From: Tribonema minus
Lineage: Eukaryota; Sar; Xanthophyceae; Tribonematales; Tribonemataceae
DNA: 64,000 bases
Assembly: GCA_017506865.1 (NCBI GenBank)
Contig: JAFCMP010000147.1
Coordinates: 1-64,000, forward strand
Reading direction: 5' to 3'
Below are positions 183-12,744 of the stretch, piece by piece. Numbering within the stretch: position 1 is the stretch's first letter; the number at the start of each line of letters is the position of its first letter. Below the pieces are notes generated by a model. The model searched no databases. It was not told where the DNA came from and was given only the letters and a program-made list of their open reading frames with translations. A program made the translations under genes and the position numbers.

Positions 183-1253
183 CTAGTTCTGGTTCACTCC
201 CTCTTCTTTGAAAAGCGCGGTGTGCACGCACGCGCTCTCGTGCATGGTATCACTGAGGTCATGTACCTCCTGAGGTGTCAATGTACCCATGCAGTTGCTC
301 AGTTTTGTAGATATTTGTGCAAGTTTGTTAAATTTAAAAGCCGTGCCTCCCGGGCATGCCGTATAAGCACCTATGCGGCCTAGAAATGCTGGTGAGTCTT
401 GCAGTTGTTTCATCCTCAAAACGTACCCAGACGGAGGTGCAGGTCCAGCATCGGTGCAGTCGGGCCACTGCTCGTCAGTGTGCTCGTACTGCCTAGGTCC
501 GATGATCTCCGTCATCTGAGGCATGCGTGAAGGGCAGTCTGCATTGCCATTGTCTTTGCCAGGCCTGTGTACGACCATGATGTCGTATTCCTGGAGACGC
601 ATGGCCCAATGTAGCAGCTTGCTATTGTGATTGTTCAAGGTCAAGAGCCAGCGAAGCGCAGACGCGTCGGTTACGACGGTTACAGGTCTGCCCCAAATGT
701 AACCGCGGAAGTTGTTCAAAGCTAGCACTACAGCCAGACACTCAGTGCAGTAGCACCAAGTTTGCGTCCTGCACTGAGTTAATCTTGCTGAAAAATGCCA
801 CAACTACCTCTCTGGCAGGTTTGCCGTCAACTGTGTTGACACGGCGCGTGCTGGCCCAGGGGAAGTCCTTGTGCCGTTCACGTATTTGTCTAGTGGCACG
901 AATTGAGATAGAACACCAGCAACGGCTAGCTTGCTTGCGTCTGTATGTACTATAAAAGGTAGGTCAAAGTCTGGGTGCATGATCACAGGAGCGTTTGACA
1001 TGGCGTGCTTGAGTTTGGCCAGCGCCTCTTGGCGGCGTTTGGTCCACGACATGTCAGCGCCATCACGCGTACACTCGACTAGGGGAGCTGCAATATGCGC
1101 GAACCGATGTATGTAGCGCCTATAGTAATTGAAGCACCCCATGAGGACTTGCATTAGCCGTTTATCTACCTTGCCGTCCTTGCCTACGGGTGGCATCATG
1201 TCGACCATGGCTTTTACTTTGTCCTCACATGGCTTGATTCCATACTTGCCCAC
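183..1253 (-). pseudogene. RT connection and RNase H region, broken by frameshifts
   Basis: The frame 804-1253 carries the RT thumb/connection (CFNYYRRYIHRFAHIAAPL) and the start of RNase H (DLPFIVHTDASKLAVAGVLS). The frame 183-803 continues RNase H (VTVVTDASALRWLL, RPGKDNGNADCPSR), and a His-rich segment (HDLSDTMHES) sits where the integrase zinc domain should begin. All three frames are needed in 740-850, with stops, so there are at least two indels. The first 180 bases give no coherent integrase motif. This part is a decayed remnant as read here; consensus errors are an alternative. Confidence 0.8.
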
Positions 1254-1830
1254 CTTGTGGCCCTAGGTATGTAACTTCTTCGGCAAAGAGTTGGCACTTG
1301 TGTCTAGACACACTCATGCCGTACTCTTCCACGCGTCGAAGTACATCGTCCAAGTGAGCTATATGGTCTTCTAAATTCTTGCTGTGTACGAGCACATCAT
1401 CAACGTACACGCACGCATGCGTTTGCCTGGCTGAGCCTAGGAGCTCATGCATGCATCTGGTGAATATGCTTGGCAGGCACACCAACCCAAACGGCGCGAC
1501 CTTGTACTCCCAGAGTGAGCCATCAGGTGCCCGGAATGCCGTCTTGCAGGTTGATTCTCTAGTCATAGGTATTTGCCTGTAACCAGAAGCAAAGTCTAGT
1601 GCCGAGAATATGCGTGAGCCCGAGCATTTCTGAACCAAGTCGTCCATATTGCCAAGCCCATACTCATCACGGCGTGTAACTCTGTTGAGCGGCCTATAGT
1701 CAACGCAGAAACGGACCTTGTCCTTCTGAGTCACCAGCACTGGATTGCTAGCCCAAGGACCATTGGCAGGTCTGATCTGTCCGCGTTTGCGCTCATTTTC
1801 AATGGCTTCAAATATGATTTTAGCTTCGCG
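1225..1830 (-). CDS. Reverse transcriptase domain (gypsy type)
   Basis: Clear RT motifs: FCVDYRPLNRVTRRDEYGL, ALDFASGYRQIPM, and the catalytic YVDDVLVHS near 1394-1410, followed by HLDDVLRRVEEYGMSVSRHKC. This copies element RNA into DNA. The frame is lost near 1250 within the conserved Y-L-G-H-K segment, where one extra G moves the reading frame; the frame then continues as 804-1253. Because the break falls inside a conserved structural element it looks like decay rather than programmed frameshifting. Confidence 0.93.
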   Translation of the reverse strand, partial: REAKIIFEAIENERKRGQIRPANGPWASNPVLVTQKDKVRFCVDYRPLNRVTRRDEYGLGNMDDLVQKCSGSRIFSALDFASGYRQIPMTRESTCKTAFRAPDGSLWEYKVAPFGLVCLPSIFTRCMHELLGSARQTHACVYVDDVLVHSKNLEDHIAHLDDVLRRVEEYGMSVSRHKCQLFAEEVTYLGPQGGQVWNQAM

Positions 1831-2779
1831 TTCAGCCCACCTGCGTGCCCTGTCGGCGATGGGCGCTGCGTCGCCTGTGTCAATGTCCACGTCAAAACGG
1901 TCCGTCACCTTGGGGTTCTTGGGGTCCTTGGCAAAGGCGCCTCGTCGCCGGCGAAGCACCTCCATGGCGCGGTCATAATAGGTGACGCCGTGTTGATCGC
2001 GTTGCTTGAGGATGTTGAAGATCTCCCCGTTCTTGTCACACAGCACTTCACGTAGCTCCTCGTCTGTGCAAGTTCCCAGCGAGGCATTGTGCTCCTCTGC
2101 CACCTTGTGTCTGAATGCGGCTCGTTCCGCCTCAGCGCGCATGGCAGGGTCTGGTCTTGGCGAGTCGTGTTCTGGCACACACGAGGGGTCTGGCTGCTGC
2201 ACAGGTCTTGATCTGTTTACAGCAGGTGTATCTGGTGCGTTTTGCCCAAGGTGTCTCAACGCAATTCTTGTCAAGTTAGTCACAAGCTCCTCTTTGCCAA
2301 TGTCTAGGCTGCAGATCATGCCAGGGGCCTCAATGACGCCCAGCACTGCACCTCTAGGCACAAACACTGGCGCAGTGGAAGTGTTCTCGACTAACATCCC
2401 TAGTGGCTTGTTAGGTGCTACAAAGTCCACCGTATCCATGAGAACGGCACCTCTGGTGGCCAGCCTGTTTGTCATCACTGACGCCTCTGGCGCGTCAGGG
2501 GTGAGTAGCACTTCAACAGGGCCTGTGCACTGTACTGGTGGATGTGACACTACTTCAATGGTTTTAGCGGTGTCAGCTTTAAGCACCTGGTCACACGTTG
2601 TACGCAGCAAATAAGTGCGACTAGGCAAAGTGGGCCTCTGAGAAGACTTGGCTCTTGTAACACCCACCTTGATCGTGTTGGCAGCTGGGGGGTCTAGAGT
2701 CCCCAACTTAGCTTGTTCATGCATGGTAACGGCAGGTCCAGCGGATCCAGCGGGGTGGAATCGCATGCCATGTTCATAG

Positions 2780-3075
2780 GTGATGGACGAGCCAAATTTG
2801 CCAAAGAAATGTGACCCCAAGATTGCCTCGTAAGGCAGGTCCACCACGTAAAAAGCGTGTGTGAATATGGTGTCTTTGAAGCGCACCTGGGCGTGCACTA
2901 CACCTGAAATTGGCACAGACTTCTTGGCGTCTGCAAGTTCAACCGTGGTAAAATCACCCTCGGAGAGCGGGCAAATTGAACCCGGCGGCAACTGGTGTGC
3001 GCGTTCTGTGTTAATGAATTCGGCCTCGGCGCCGTTATCCACTAGCGCGTCAAGTACCAGTTCTTGTATGCCGTT
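2780..3075 (-). CDS. Retropepsin-like aspartic protease of the retrotransposon
   Basis: Around residues 1365-1460 the stretch LDALVDNGAEAEFIN matches the active-site loop of retroviral-type aspartic proteases, followed by hydrophobic strands and YEAILGSHFFGKF, which resembles the ILG-x-DFL element of gypsy-type proteases. The active-site triplet reads Asp-Asn-Gly rather than the usual Asp-Ser/Thr-Gly. The enzyme would cleave the polyprotein, including releasing the methyltransferase. It lies between the methyltransferase and the reverse transcriptase. Confidence 0.75.
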
Positions 3076-3599
3076 ACCAACTTGTGTGCGTATTGGCATG
3101 TGCACAAAGCCATTCTTCTTAGGTCTGCCGACTGCACGTGCCCTATGTAGAATCTTGGGAGGCTTGTCACGTGCTATGCGTCTGGGTTGAGCCTTGAAAA
3201 CATCGGTAGCAATGCTACTAGCACTAGGCTGCTGAGCATCTGCATCACTGTCAGTGTCGCTCATTTCTCGCATTGCAACAGCACGTGGCGTCTCGACATG
3301 CGGCGCATGAGAAGCATGAGGAGTCAAAGGCTCTTCCTCATCTTCACCGTACGTCCAAGGCGTCTGCGAAACCGGTGCATCACTTCCAGGCCCAAATGAT
3401 GCAAGTATGGCTTGGCCTACATTGCGTGTAAAACGCTGGAAGTTCCGCACGCAAGCACTAGCTAGGCGCAGTATTGCAGGCCGATCAGGACCGGAGTCTA
3501 CCATCCATTCTGGCGGGGGAGAAGTGCGATCATGCACTACAACCTCACCTGGTAAGACGCCAGTAGCATCGCGAGGGCTTGGCCATTCCTCCGGCAAGG

Positions 3600-4525
3600 C
3601 AGCAACCGCGTGCAAGGCAAGCATGAGCGCTGACACGCAATTGGGTTGCACTAAGTTTGCAGCCCAGCGCTTCATCTGAGTGACAGTCCCGGAAGGATGT
3701 GGCTCAAAGTAGCCCAGCAAGTTCATGACCTGATCAACAGTCAAGACAAGGGCCTTATTAACTGGTCCTGCGTCTTTCTCACGTGGCTGATAAGACGAGG
3801 AGGGGCCCCGCCCAGGCTGGCGAGTAACAGGGCTAGGGAGCGGCATGTCAGTAGACAGCACGCCTTGCGTCGTGGGTTGCCTCGGGTCCCAATAAAACGT
3901 GTCATGGGAGCAACCAAGATGTTCACGGACCGTACGTGGCTTGCTGGTGCGAAAGCGCTCATTGAGAATTGCATTCAAGCGTGCAAATCGTTCAGGCAAC
4001 CGAGCAGCATTTGCAGCTGACACAGTATAGACGCGCTCACGTGAAGATGCACCATTAACGTCGGTCCCACGAAACTGCACCTCATAGGTGGAGTACCCCT
4101 TTGTACCCACGACGCGGCAGAAGTCACGCCATGAGCTTGATAGGAGCATCCTAGGCACGTTTTCGTTGATGACTAGAGCTGGCAGGCAATCGGCAGCAAT
4201 CTCTGCAACATGTACAAGCGTGCGTGCTGCATCGCCTTCAATCCCCATTCCCGCAGGGGAAAACTCAACACAAGAAGATGTATTCCAAATCGCGTCTGGC
4301 TTGAGGTGCTTGAGCCTCTCGCGAACTTGGGGGCTAGATACATCTGCACATATGACCTCGGTGTCAGGGAAGAGTTTGCTGTACTCCTCACATGTACGCT
4401 TGCAGTTGTCTACCGCTAAGACCACCTGCACGTCAACGTCTGCTGCACGTGCGAACTCCTGCAACCCCCTATGTACACCCCCTATTCCACAGCACAACTC
4501 TGCCACCCGCAGCCGCCTTCTGTCC
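3600..4525 (-). CDS. Cytosine-5 DNA methyltransferase domain inside the retrotransposon polyprotein
   Basis: Residues about 880-1190 show the ordered motifs of C5 DNA methyltransferases, which transfer a methyl group from S-adenosylmethionine to cytosine. Motif I (SAM binding) is AELCCGIGGVHRGL; motif II region is VLAVDNCK; motif IV, with the catalytic Cys, is SSCVEFSPAGMG; motif VI is NENVPRML; motif VIII is SSRERVY; motif IX-like is LTVDQVMNLLGYF; motif X-like is AANLVQPNCVSAL. A gap of about 100 residues between VIII and IX fits a target-recognition region. The domain is in the same uninterrupted frame as Gag and protease. Oddities: the Pro normally before the catalytic Cys is Ser, and motif VIII lacks the usual Gln. 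All key acidic and Cys residues are present, so activity is plausible. Such captures are known, to my recollection, from a few algal and dinoflagellate retrotransposons. Confidence 0.9.
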
Positions 4526-5129
4526 GAACGCCCCGCGTCGGCATCAGACGCCTCCTTAGTCTGCGGATATGACACGGGCGAAGTGGTGGAAGTAGGTGCA
4601 ACGCATCTGGGGTCAGAGTCAGAAACGTCGGTCTTACCTGGCTGCGGAGTGGCAACATCATGAGTGACATCTCGCGCTGCAAGCGGCGCGCAACTGGTCG
4701 TGTCACTGGTGCCCAGAACAGTCAAAGGTGCGCTAGTGTCAAGTGCGCATACTGCTGGAGCGTCACTGGCATCTGGAGCAGTCAATGGTGCGCTGGTGTC
4801 AAGTGCGCGTACTGCTGGCTCACTATGCGCATACAAGAACGTGGCTAACATGCAAGTGCCAACGGTCTTGTCAAGCATGCGTGTAGTGACTTGTGTGCCG
4901 GCCTCAGTCGCCGCTGGTTGCACATCTAGCGCTTCTAGCACATCTTGCGTGGAGCTAGTGCAATGACCGCTGTGCCCAAGTTGCACTGGCGCGTCAACAT
5001 CTATGAGTGCACTAGGCAAGGTGTGGAAAGCGGTGAGCGAACACTCACTTGTCTTGGCGCGCTTGGCGCGCAGCTCGTCGCGGCGCTTCTCCAGCTTGTC
5101 GTGGGGCCTCTTGGCGGCCTTCAGGCGCT

Positions 5130-5225
5130 CGATGCGGTGCTCGTACCATTCCGGGCACTCTTGGCAGTGCTCCCGGAGCTTGTTCTCTCCACCAAAGTGC
5201 TTGTGGCACCCGAAGCACTCGTCGC
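5130..5225 (-). CDS. Cys/His-rich putative zinc finger after Gag
   Basis: Around residues 645-677 of the polyprotein the pattern C-x2-C-x12-H-C-x2-C followed by a further His is seen (core CFGCHKHF, then HCQECPEWYEH). It sits where retroelements usually carry a CCHC nucleic-acid-binding knuckle, but the spacing is closer to a C2H2-type finger. It is flanked by Lys/Arg-rich and Pro/Lys-rich stretches. A role in RNA or DNA binding is likely; targeting of the adjacent methyltransferase is conceivable but only inference. Confidence 0.6.
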
Positions 5226-5429
5226 TGCTGGAAGCCCTGGCCTTGTCGCTCTTGGGCTTGGCCGGCTGCTTGGCAGGCTTGGCGGGAGCCATCGCCGCAG
5301 CCCTAGGGTGGCCCTCGTCCGAAGTGTCCATAGCGGCGCTGCCGCGCATGGCGCTAGTCTTGGCCTTGGCGCCCTCGTTGACGATAGCGAGCGCCATGCC
5401 CTGCCGCTCAGCTGCCTCTTTGAGGTTGC

Positions 5430-6978
5430 GCTTGAAGTCTGCGAGCTGTTGGGGACGCATGGCTTTGTAAAAGTCCTCGGTGCGGTCGACCATGGCGTTC
5501 CAGTCTTCAAGTATAAGGCGCTCCTTGCGGAAGTCTTGGCGAAGGGGCTGCGTCATGCGGTTGGAGAAGTGCGTCTTGAGCATGGTGACGTCGACGACCG
5601 CGCCCTCGGGTCCGGCGCGCTCCGCAGCATGGAGTAGCTCGTCGGCAAACTGGCGTGGCGTCCAGTCTGGCTGCCAGACGAGGTCAGTGATCTCCATCAT
5701 CGCCTCGGCGCGGTGAGCTGCGTTGTCGAAGCGCTTGGCGATCGCCGCCCAAAGCTCCTCGTAGTTCATGGAACCGCAGCCCTGAACGCGCTCCAGCCCC
5801 GTAACAGGGTCCTTGTGCGCGATGATGAGCTGGTCTTGCTGATCCGCGGTCAGGCAACGGCGCAGAGCGAAGTCCCACTTGTCGTAGGGGACACTGTTGT
5901 AGTGGGCCGCCTGCTCGAAATGGCGGCGCGTCGTCTCGGTTGCGCCGGGGCGGAAGGGAATGGGGAGCGCCGTAGGGTTGAAGAACTTCTGCCAGCTCAC
6001 GTCTTCATGGTGGCTAGAGCTCGCAGTGGCGGCAGCTGCAGGCGCGGCGAGTGGCGCTGCGCCCTCGAACGGCGCGCGCGCGGGGTTGATGACGTTGGCG
6101 AAAAGGCCGCTACTGCTAGTAGGCGCGGGGGCATAGCTGTGGCTAGCGGTGGGCGCGAGTAGGTCCGTCCCGGGATAGCCCACGGGCATTGCGCGAAGCT
6201 GCTCCTCTTGGGTGCGCTGGGCAGCTTCGGTGAAGAGCGTCGGCGCGGTGAAGTTGACAAAGTGCGCCAGCGCCGCCGGTCCGGCGCGGCGCGCCGCATC
6301 AAAGTAATCTCGAATGCGGCGGTACCGCTCGACGCGGTCCGCGTGACGCCGCAGGTCCGATGCGCGCAGGGCGCGGCGGTGACGCTCCGCCTCGATGCGC
6401 GAGCGCCAGTCGGCGTCAGCTTCGGCCTCGATGGCTAGCTGCAGGGGCGTGGCGTGGGCAGTAGGCAGAGGACGCCGCTCGCGCTCCTCGTACAGCTCCT
6501 TGATCTTGGCGTCCGCGGCTAGAGTGTCGCGCTTGGCTTTGTCACGAGCAGCGTCATCTTGGGTAATGCGCTGGCCAAGCTCGACCTCGATGCCGCGGGC
6601 GACGCGCTCAACGTCGTCAGAAGAGGTCGGGGGGACGGCGGCGGCGCGTGGAGTTGCAGCGGTGCCGGCGCTGAAGAGGATGGCTGGGTCGAGGCTAGCA
6701 GTGGTGCTAGTAGCTGGACGCACCGAAGCGCTCACGCGCTCTGCAGCACGGCGCAGAGCCTCGTCGCTAATAGCGGGGAGAGCGGCGCGAAGTCCTCGGA
6801 CGATGTCGTCCATCTGCTCTCGACCATCACCGGAAGCCGGGGCAGGTGCGGCGGATGTCGCGACCGGCAGGTTTCCGGAGGACGCGGGGGGACCTTGAGC
6901 TTGAGCGGCAGTGACAGGCGGAGTGGCAGTCGGTGTAGTCCCAGCGCTCGCAGGGGTCGAGGCGACCGCAGCCGACAT
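5430..6978 (-). CDS. Gag-like N-terminal part of the retrotransposon polyprotein
   Basis: About the first 300 residues are Ala/Pro/Ser-rich and of low complexity, followed by charged, Arg-rich helices. Around residues 400-580 lies a region that resembles retrotransposon Gag (capsid) domains, with a Trp/Leu-rich pattern and the stretch WTPRQFADELLHAAERAG. This would form the virus-like particle that packages element RNA. The first in-frame ATG is at 6978; the frame is open upstream to about 7217 without another ATG, so either 6978 is the start or an upstream non-ATG or spliced start is used. The Gag assignment rests on position and general pattern, not on an invariant motif. Confidence 0.6.
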
Positions 6979-7217
6979 GCCGCCCTGATCGGCAGGAGGC
7001 GCCGACACAGGGTGCACAGGGGGGGGCTGTGCCTGCGGATCCGCACCGCCACCGCTACTCTCACCGCCGGTTCCCGCGCCACCCGTTTCCCCAACGGAGG
7101 CTAAGGCCGTCGCAGGCTGTTCGGCGTTGCCAGTGTGGATAGCACTTCCTCCCTGAGACACACGACAAAGTTGGCAACTCGTTGCTAGTACGCACTTCTG
7201 TGTAGAGCGGGCAAACG

Positions 7218-8590
7218 CTCAAAATGTGCGCGTCGACGGCGTGCCAGAGCGCTCAAGATTTTCAAAGTGCTCAAAGTTTATGCAATCTGCTCAGAGGTTA
7301 TGCAGAAGCCGATAATTCCCCTTTCCACTTGAAAAAGCGTGCCAGGGTCGGCCTAGGCGAGTCTAGCCAGCGTGTGGACAACTCCACATTGTCAACTCAA
7401 AATGCGTCGGGGTGATCAGTCCCGTTGCATACATGAGTTTTCACGCTGCACGCAACATTGTGCCGAGGTGCACGAATCAGTTAGCGGCGCTCACACTAAC
7501 TGACGGAAAACGCTGTTGCATGGTTGCGTGTCCATGCTCACGGATTCCTCAAAGTAGCTGGAGCACCTAGTCTGACAGTACAGCCAGTTGTGCCTAGCAG
7601 CCGTGTGCTGGAAGGGAAACACCGTGAGCTTCGTTGATCGCATGCTGTCGTCTGCAGGACTAAACAGCACGGACTTGCCATAGCATGCGAGCAACTGATA
7701 GACGCTGGGCAGTCTTAGTACATAGCAGCGTCCCTATGTGTCTGTTGCACCGCCAGCGCGACCCCGTCGCGGACGCAGTACTTCAGAACACCTTCGTGGC
7801 CTAAGTGCACGGCATTAAACTGTGTCGGAGTAATCGACAGAGTCTTCAAAGTCTAGCACCGATGTTGTCGCCGGCAAGTGGAGCTGAGCCATGATACAGC
7901 AAAGCAGCCTGGAGTCTATGTTCTTGAGCAATAGAGCTGCTGAGCTGCTAGTGACATCAAAGTGCAACCAACTTGCAGGGCAAACATCAGTGGGGCAAAC
8001 AAAGACACACCTGTGTAGACATGACTGAAGAAGGAGAGTGAGCCCAATGGATATGGCTCAGCTCCAGAGGTCTTGCTGTCTCCCAGCCAGGATGGCCTCT
8101 TGTTGCTTGCCTTGTAGGTGCCTCGAGCACTTGTTGTTGAAGCAAAAAAAGCCGTCCTCCTAGTTGCTGGCACAGGGCTTGAAGTTGAAGTACCGGTCCA
8201 GAGAACGGTCTCCCCCTTCCAGAGCTCCTGGCATTTCATGCTACTTGTAGCATAAAACAGAGAACTTGTATCATGTATGTACACACCGTCTGGCCTTTTT
8301 CGTACACGGCGCCGCTCCTTCGGCACAACCCCTGCATGCGCATTACCACCAAGCATCACACCCCACAACACCCCCTTCCGTCTATGGAGCAGGATGTTAT
8401 TTCCCCTTTGTGGCTGCGACATCGAGGCAGGACTCAGCATTCAGCAGCCCCCCCCCCCCCTCCCTTTCCCCCCTCTCACAGCCACCGCACACTGTGTTGG
8501 CCAGACACACGACGCCACATAAACACGCCACGCCGGCGCGCCCCTCTCCCCCCACTCACAACCACCGCGCTGTGCGCTACGCACTAGAAC
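7218..8590. other. Region upstream of the retrotransposon frame; likely 5' UTR/LTR and intergenic
   Basis: No supported gene. The retrotransposon 5' LTR should lie here but I could not find its limits because the 3' LTR is outside the window. The part 8440-8590 is C-rich with simple tracts and is the 3' flank of the kinase gene. A TTGAAG-type short repeat occurs near 8180. Confidence 0.4.

Positions 8591-12744
<4,154 letters not shown>

Follow-up and report, generated by a model that had tools for sequence, protein, structure and literature searches.

A putative restriction-modification-type cytosine methyltransferase in the polyprotein of a Ty3/gypsy-type retrotransposon of Tribonema minus

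Contig C147 of the genome of the yellow-green alga Tribonema minus, of which the first 64 kb (positions 1-64,000; hereafter the window) were analysed, begins inside a Ty3/gypsy-type LTR retrotransposon that lies on the minus strand and is truncated by the contig start. Its polyprotein appears to contain a DNA methyltransferase (DNMT), which raises the questions of whether this enzyme is a genuine component of the element, where it came from and what it does there. We addressed these questions by searching the genome (158 Mb, 554 contigs) for copies and relatives of the element, and by comparing the domain with known C5 cytosine methyltransferases.

Anatomy of the element

The initial annotation had placed a DNMT in one frame with Gag and protease (PR), upstream of the reverse transcriptase (RT). 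This arrangement was confirmed: the polyprotein frame (Table 1) is stop-free over 1997 codons, with profile matches to PF00145 (E 5e-15) and RVT_1 (E 3.6e-31), and on the overlapping contigs C23 and C435 it continues uninterrupted to 3177 codons. Since the window ends before the integrase, the integrase, the Tudor-like C-terminus and the 3' LTR were observed on other contigs, where RT is followed by RNase H, then by the integrase (H2C2 and rve) and finally by a C-terminal part in which the Tudor profile PF21743 scored below threshold, at E 0.03 for L014 and E 0.007 for P0004, with no match listed for P0003. A purine-rich tract lies ahead of the 3' LTR, and comparison of copies gave an LTR length of about 383 bases.

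Table 1. Positions of element features in the window
Feature	Position	Strand	Basis or remark
Gag-DNMT-PR-RT polyprotein frame	1225..7218	-	first in-frame ATG 6976-6978; 3' end broken in window contig
5' LTR	7892..8273	-	TGATACA...TGTATCA; copy comparison
Target-site duplication TGTA	8274..8277		partner beyond 3' LTR on overlapping contigs C23, C435
Primer-binding-site-like stretch	7874..7891	-	directly after LTR, begins TGG; inference
Gag-region zinc finger C-x2-C-x12-H-x3-C	5155..5217	-	sequence
C5 cytosine methyltransferase domain, motifs I-X and target-recognition domain	about 3529..4521	-	sequence, profile, predicted fold
Motif IV, Ser-Cys replacing Pro-Cys	4255..4284	-	sequence
Target-recognition-domain core, common to HindV-like restriction-modification enzymes	3802..3900	-	profile alignment
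Aspartic protease active-site region (DNGAE)	3013..3054	-	sequence
Reverse transcriptase RVT_1; YVDD at 1384-1413	1261..1722	-	profile search
RNase H region, split over two frames in window contig	183..1262	-	profile search

The gypsy-type order PR-RT-RNase H-integrase (H2C2 and rve) was present in L014, P0003 and P0004, with rve just below the cut-off in L014 and PR sub-threshold in all three. The DNMT domain and RT occur together in the relatives P0002 to P0004, two of which (P0003 and P0004) have the integrase domains as well. Together with the LTRs, this order agrees with the earlier proposal that a DNMT is encoded within a Ty3/gypsy-type element. The element is a real LTR retrotransposon with a single polyprotein that runs from Gag through DNMT, protease, RT, RNase H and integrase to a Tudor-like tail, and we are nearly certain of this anatomy and of the DNMT as selected cargo.

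At the protease active site, the window's family has DNG, and the relatives P0002, P0003 and P0004 have DCG, DTG and DSG, respectively. The Gag-region finger is not the usual CCHC knuckle; its spacing is the same in P0004 and similar in other relatives. An NDR-type kinase gene (8591-11300) in the same orientation ends a few hundred bases before the element. Part of this gene also occurs at the end of contig C23, indicating that the window contig and C23 overlap or are alleles. An Rfam search of the 64-kb window gave no match, and no tRNA was found in it.

Copies of the element and conservation of the methyltransferase

We found 40 near-full-length LTR matches in the genome. Copies with both LTRs, which the initial annotation had envisaged, do exist: 12 same-strand LTR pairs are spaced 8.1-14.9 kb apart and one is spaced 5.7 kb. 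Within the copies on C404, C435, C23 and C471 the two LTRs are 99.5-100% identical, showing that the family moved recently. These four flanked copies were examined for target-site duplications. The insertion on C23 and C435 is that of the window, as the alignment stays above 99% through the LTR and into flanking host DNA up to about 9.9 kb, and all three share the duplication TGTA; C404 is a separate insertion (duplication TGAC), and C471 is a third one, without a matching duplication.

With the strand checked, a DNMT was found upstream of RT in 128 of the 149 RT matches listed for the clade (104, plus 24 added by another DNMT query, a few of the matches being pieces of one copy), and in 45 of the 46 listed at an RT identity of at least 91%. 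The offset between RT and DNMT has a median of 2.7-3.0 kb, with an outlier near 6 kb on C28. For the other 21 listed matches, C257 among them, two DNMT queries found no DNMT upstream; some of these lie near contig ends. The C257 copy (G000:C257:690283-698788) has near-identical LTRs 8.1 kb apart and an RT that is 100% identical, and is likely a natural deletion copy, so loss of the DNMT is possible. Full-length open DNMT frames of the window's type (type A; 290 codons or more, no stop) occur in at least 149 places (117 and 32), counted on contigs and not proven to be separate insertions; as contigs partly overlap (a single insertion is common to C23, C435 and C147), the number of separate insertions is lower than that of places.

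These counts bear on whether the locus could be an assembly artefact, a contamination or a decayed passenger. The contig does start within the element, the 3' part of the frame is broken, and some of the contigs are short. Against this, the insertion is found again, flanked by host DNA, on C23 and C435, the domain recurs at many loci, and its omega is about 0.1 (see below). The assembly join that the initial annotation had named as a possible objection fails on the same counts of listed RT matches and open frames, and we regard an artefactual or decayed origin as hardly credible.

A DNMT query of the genome returned at least 124 matches, with identities of 98-100% in the window's family and of 84-80, 75, 63 and 33-36% in others. 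In the family at 63% DNMT identity the RT is still 91% identical, and an RT at 62% pairs with a DNMT at 33%; the DNMT thus changes faster than the RT core. Within this gypsy clade the DNMT is an old component and almost always present. On G000:C311, a single open frame of 6208 codons contains the clade's DNMT and RT, and perhaps represents two fused copies.

Selection was assessed by omega (Nei-Gojobori). Between the window copy and L050, L053 and L054, omega was 0.105, 0.082 and 0.145 for the DNMT, at a dS of 0.8-1.8, i.e., near saturation; the corresponding values were 0.068, 0.083 and 0.078 for the protease and 0.665, 0.512 and 0.415 for the upstream linker. The target-recognition half of the DNMT gave 0.079-0.151. 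Constraint on the DNMT, its target-recognition half included, is therefore almost as tight as on the protease. The degenerate copy L052 had an omega of 0.114 for the DNMT and 0.247 for PR, and L047 had 0.247 and 0.652, respectively, from too few changes. For the Gag core, omega was 0.260 in L053, 0.493 in L052 (57 codons) and 0.090 in L047. In a pairwise table covering 10 of the 30 loci, values of up to 1.3 in very close pairs result from a dS near zero. The DNMT is under purifying selection across the whole domain.

Class, active site and origin of the methyltransferase

The initial annotation had listed motifs I, IV, VI, VIII, IX and X of a cytosine-5 methyltransferase. A domain with motifs I-X was indeed found, with PF00145 above its cut-off, motifs I, VI, VIII and X, the catalytic Cys and the fold of the class, and the predicted structure is that of a whole C5-methyltransferase including the target-recognition domain; the idea that it might score as another Rossmann methyltransferase was not borne out. 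Motif IV, however, is unusual. In the window's family it reads SSC at 28 of 30 loci and ASC and SAC at the remaining two, whereas Pro-Cys is found in all 87 non-type-A comparison enzymes that have a letter at this site. This difference makes catalysis uncertain.

One alternative is that methylation has been lost and that the domain persists as a structural component, or one that binds DNA or RNA, in the particle or the cDNA complex. The presence of Ser-Cys in a recently amplified family, combined with strong selection on the whole domain, would fit such a role. However, the catalytic Cys and RxR are kept at 30/30 loci, ENV at 28/30, and motif I is unaltered in most; Pro-Cys is also retained in the relatives (APC in P0002, SPC in P0003 and P0004, PPC in L006). 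We consider a purely non-catalytic role unlikely.

Among PDB chains, the DNMT profile matched DNMT2 best (3e-14), followed by HhaI (7e-8), DNMT1 (0.009) and DNMT3A (0.34). The likeness to DNMT2 (TRDMT1) spans motifs I-VIII only and ends before the target domain, and DNMT2 falls on a separate tree branch, with deep nodes poorly supported. By contrast, the match to HindV-like enzymes (L188, L138, L186, L189 and L190; more distantly phage phi3T, L187) covers the whole length, including the target domain and motifs IX-X. With a reference profile built from four HindV-like enzymes and the phi3T enzyme, hhalign aligned type A over 285 columns (E 4e-30), colinearly through the target domain to motif X. 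Seven of 136 reference sequences aligned to type A over at least 270 columns, and these were the seven HindV-like ones; nearly all references had been retrieved by similarity to the same queries, and the set contained neither DNMT1 and DNMT2 nor phi3T. One of the HindV-like genes, L188, adjoins a HindVP-family endonuclease. The HindV-like enzymes differ from the element's DNMT in being stand-alone bacterial or phage proteins with Pro-Cys and about 25% identity.

The DNMT2 matches raise the alternative that the enzyme acts on RNA, methylating the element's genomic RNA or the tRNA primer and so aiding stability, packaging or priming. The best PDB sequence matches are tRNA methyltransferases, the domain adjoins a Gag-like part that would bind RNA, and the active site is altered. 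Yet the target-recognition half matches DNA restriction-modification enzymes, and DNMT2 did not group with type A in a first tree, whose deep-node supports were low. An RNA substrate therefore strikes us as improbable.

Two other origins were considered and set aside. A DNMT3 origin is unsupported, as DNMT3A scored E 0.34 against the far better values of DNMT2 and HhaI, in a comparison limited to PDB chains. The hhalign match to a human DNMT3A fragment without motif I covered 77 columns, and with its 207 residues the DNMT3A fragment in the reference set could not attain 270 columns; DNMT3 was absent among the best 50 fold-search entries listed, which excludes nothing. For a recent viral or bacterial donor no close candidate emerged, the matches listed in viral contigs, prokaryote genomes, phages and plasmids being 21-33% identical.

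The same genome holds a second gypsy lineage with a DNMT (type B; L013, L007; C340, C550), in which a canonical Pro-Pro-Cys enzyme follows the protease and, in L013, precedes RT (PR, called by eye, then DNMT, RT, RNase H and integrase). Between L013 and the window, RT identity is 30.5%. Type B has a full-length open DNMT frame in at least 47 places, and a search for protein relatives found none at E 0.001. Its profile matched the HindV-like and phi3T profile at 5e-30 and type A at 8.6e-22; the same seven HindV-like references ranked first, with 10 of the 136 reaching 270 columns. In a whole-length tree, support was 100 for type A, 100 for the HindV-like enzymes and 85 for types A and B together. 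As to the placement of the enzyme that the initial annotation had hoped to gain from a tree, AU tests did not reject a grouping of type A with the bacterial HindV-like enzymes (p 0.30); they rejected only type B with HindV (p 0.02). They rejected neither one capture nor two: the best tree joins the types, and the different polyprotein positions, the low RT identity and the first tree hint at two captures. Judged by sequence, the DNMT is probably an orphan C5-methyltransferase of restriction-modification type that would have been taken up once or twice.

Other methyltransferases were also seen. L001 (C223:937874), L002 and L003 are small stand-alone C5-methyltransferases (GFPCVGLS); the frame next to L001 matches deoxynucleotide monophosphate kinase (PF21448, E 3e-21), and the pair looks like an endogenous viral gene pair. 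An RFD search for a host DNMT1 gave no match, and the controls gave none either. The available text of one study reports a DNMT5 and a protein classed as DNMT4 in T. minus (PMC10538959).

Possible roles and relation to known elements

That retrotransposons can bear DNMTs, as the initial annotation stated, is documented (PMC5890265; PMC12344493) by a dinoflagellate LINE and DIRS and a Klebsormidium Gypsy (PMC5890265), and, in the general terms of another source, Gypsy and DIRS elements encoding Dam or Dcm occur in stramenopiles among others (PMC6338049). The T. minus element adds a further host lineage, and its enzyme is of another class than the DNMT3 of the Gypsy and DIRS elements described in the accessible text of PMC5890265. 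There, KnitGypsy-Dnmt3 of Klebsormidium nitens has a DNMT3 in its Pol polyprotein, a DIRS-like repeat arrangement and Ka/Ks < 0.2. In both elements purifying selection maintains a C5-methyltransferase within a Gypsy polyprotein; the T. minus enzyme differs in appearing to be an orphan of restriction-modification type, and in lying between Gag and PR, in an element with direct LTRs and a stramenopile host. SymbioLINE-Dnmt and SymbioDIRS-Dnmt3 of Symbiodinium, as described in that text, are similar in that hundreds of DNMTs are retrotransposon-borne and the SymbioLINE enzyme is also an orphan, but these are LINE and DIRS elements without an integrase-bearing LTR architecture. Gypsy-10_Ec32 of Ectocarpus, with its T. 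minus homologue (PMC12477816), is likewise a stramenopile Gypsy with a C-terminal Tudor and is possibly of the same lineage; unlike here, no methyltransferase is reported in the part of that paper available, where the term DNMT does not appear. Our literature search, which left most subscription papers, preprints and supplements outside, found no report of a DNMT-bearing element in T. minus, xanthophytes or stramenopile Gypsy. As far as these searches go, the novelty lies in the host (a stramenopile), the class of enzyme, its location between Gag and PR, the presence of another arrangement elsewhere in this genome and the selected Ser-Cys site.

Taken as a whole, the best explanation is a gypsy element whose restriction-modification-type DNMT methylates its own cDNA, a reading to which we give about even credence; self-methylation as the specific role is rated slightly lower. 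The DNMT would be synthesised as part of Gag-Pol, would enter the particle and would be freed by the protease; it would then methylate cytosines of the new cDNA before integration. Methylated cDNA might resemble resident DNA or be protected, and the new copy would be marked already on arrival. Whether by this route or another, the idea of the initial annotation that the element methylates its own copies and could thereby hide from host silencing is conjectural. Such self-methylation of particle cDNA was proposed for DIRS elements by de Mendoza et al., in whose accessible text retrotransposon DNMTs are capable of de novo CG methylation and the SymbioLINE DNMT gave no DNA methylation in yeast (PMC5890265). 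The latter result implies that an orphan retrotransposon DNMT may be inactive on DNA, and the Ser-Cys motif is the main reason to doubt cDNA self-methylation here. The CpG observed/expected ratio was 0.91 for the element and 0.96 for the remainder of the window, indicating no strong footprint of methylation. Across 23 copies, C>T singletons affected 15/556 CpG sites and 22/1724 other C/G sites (p 0.03), a weak signal in which transitions are only mildly raised.

The enzyme could instead modify host chromatin or target sites in trans, the Tudor-like tail serving as reader, thereby steering integration or leaving copies quiet and tolerated. The sub-threshold Tudor matches in L014 and P0004 and the published Tudor-bearing Gypsy with a T. 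minus homologue point this way, but nothing in the analysis ties the enzyme to host sites, and we think such a role quite improbable. A broader and rather tentative reading, which we rate well below cDNA self-methylation, is that an LTR-retrotransposon clade co-opted a prokaryotic restriction-modification-type DNMT as a core component, fused with a chromatin reader, and that Ser-Cys marks either a non-canonical reaction (e.g., on RNA or an RNA-DNA hybrid in reverse transcription) or a dedicated nucleic-acid-binding part.

In the related brown algae, DNMT1, DNMT3 and DNMT5 are reported to be missing, according to the available text of PMC13076208; the T. minus genome has at least 149 type-A and at least 47 type-B places with a full-length open methyltransferase frame. 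The Ser-Cys site offers a test case for how dispensable the Pro of Pro-Cys is. Cytosine methylation, by which cells normally mark and silence transposons, is a main weapon against them, so that an element with a selected methyltransferase reverses the usual story.
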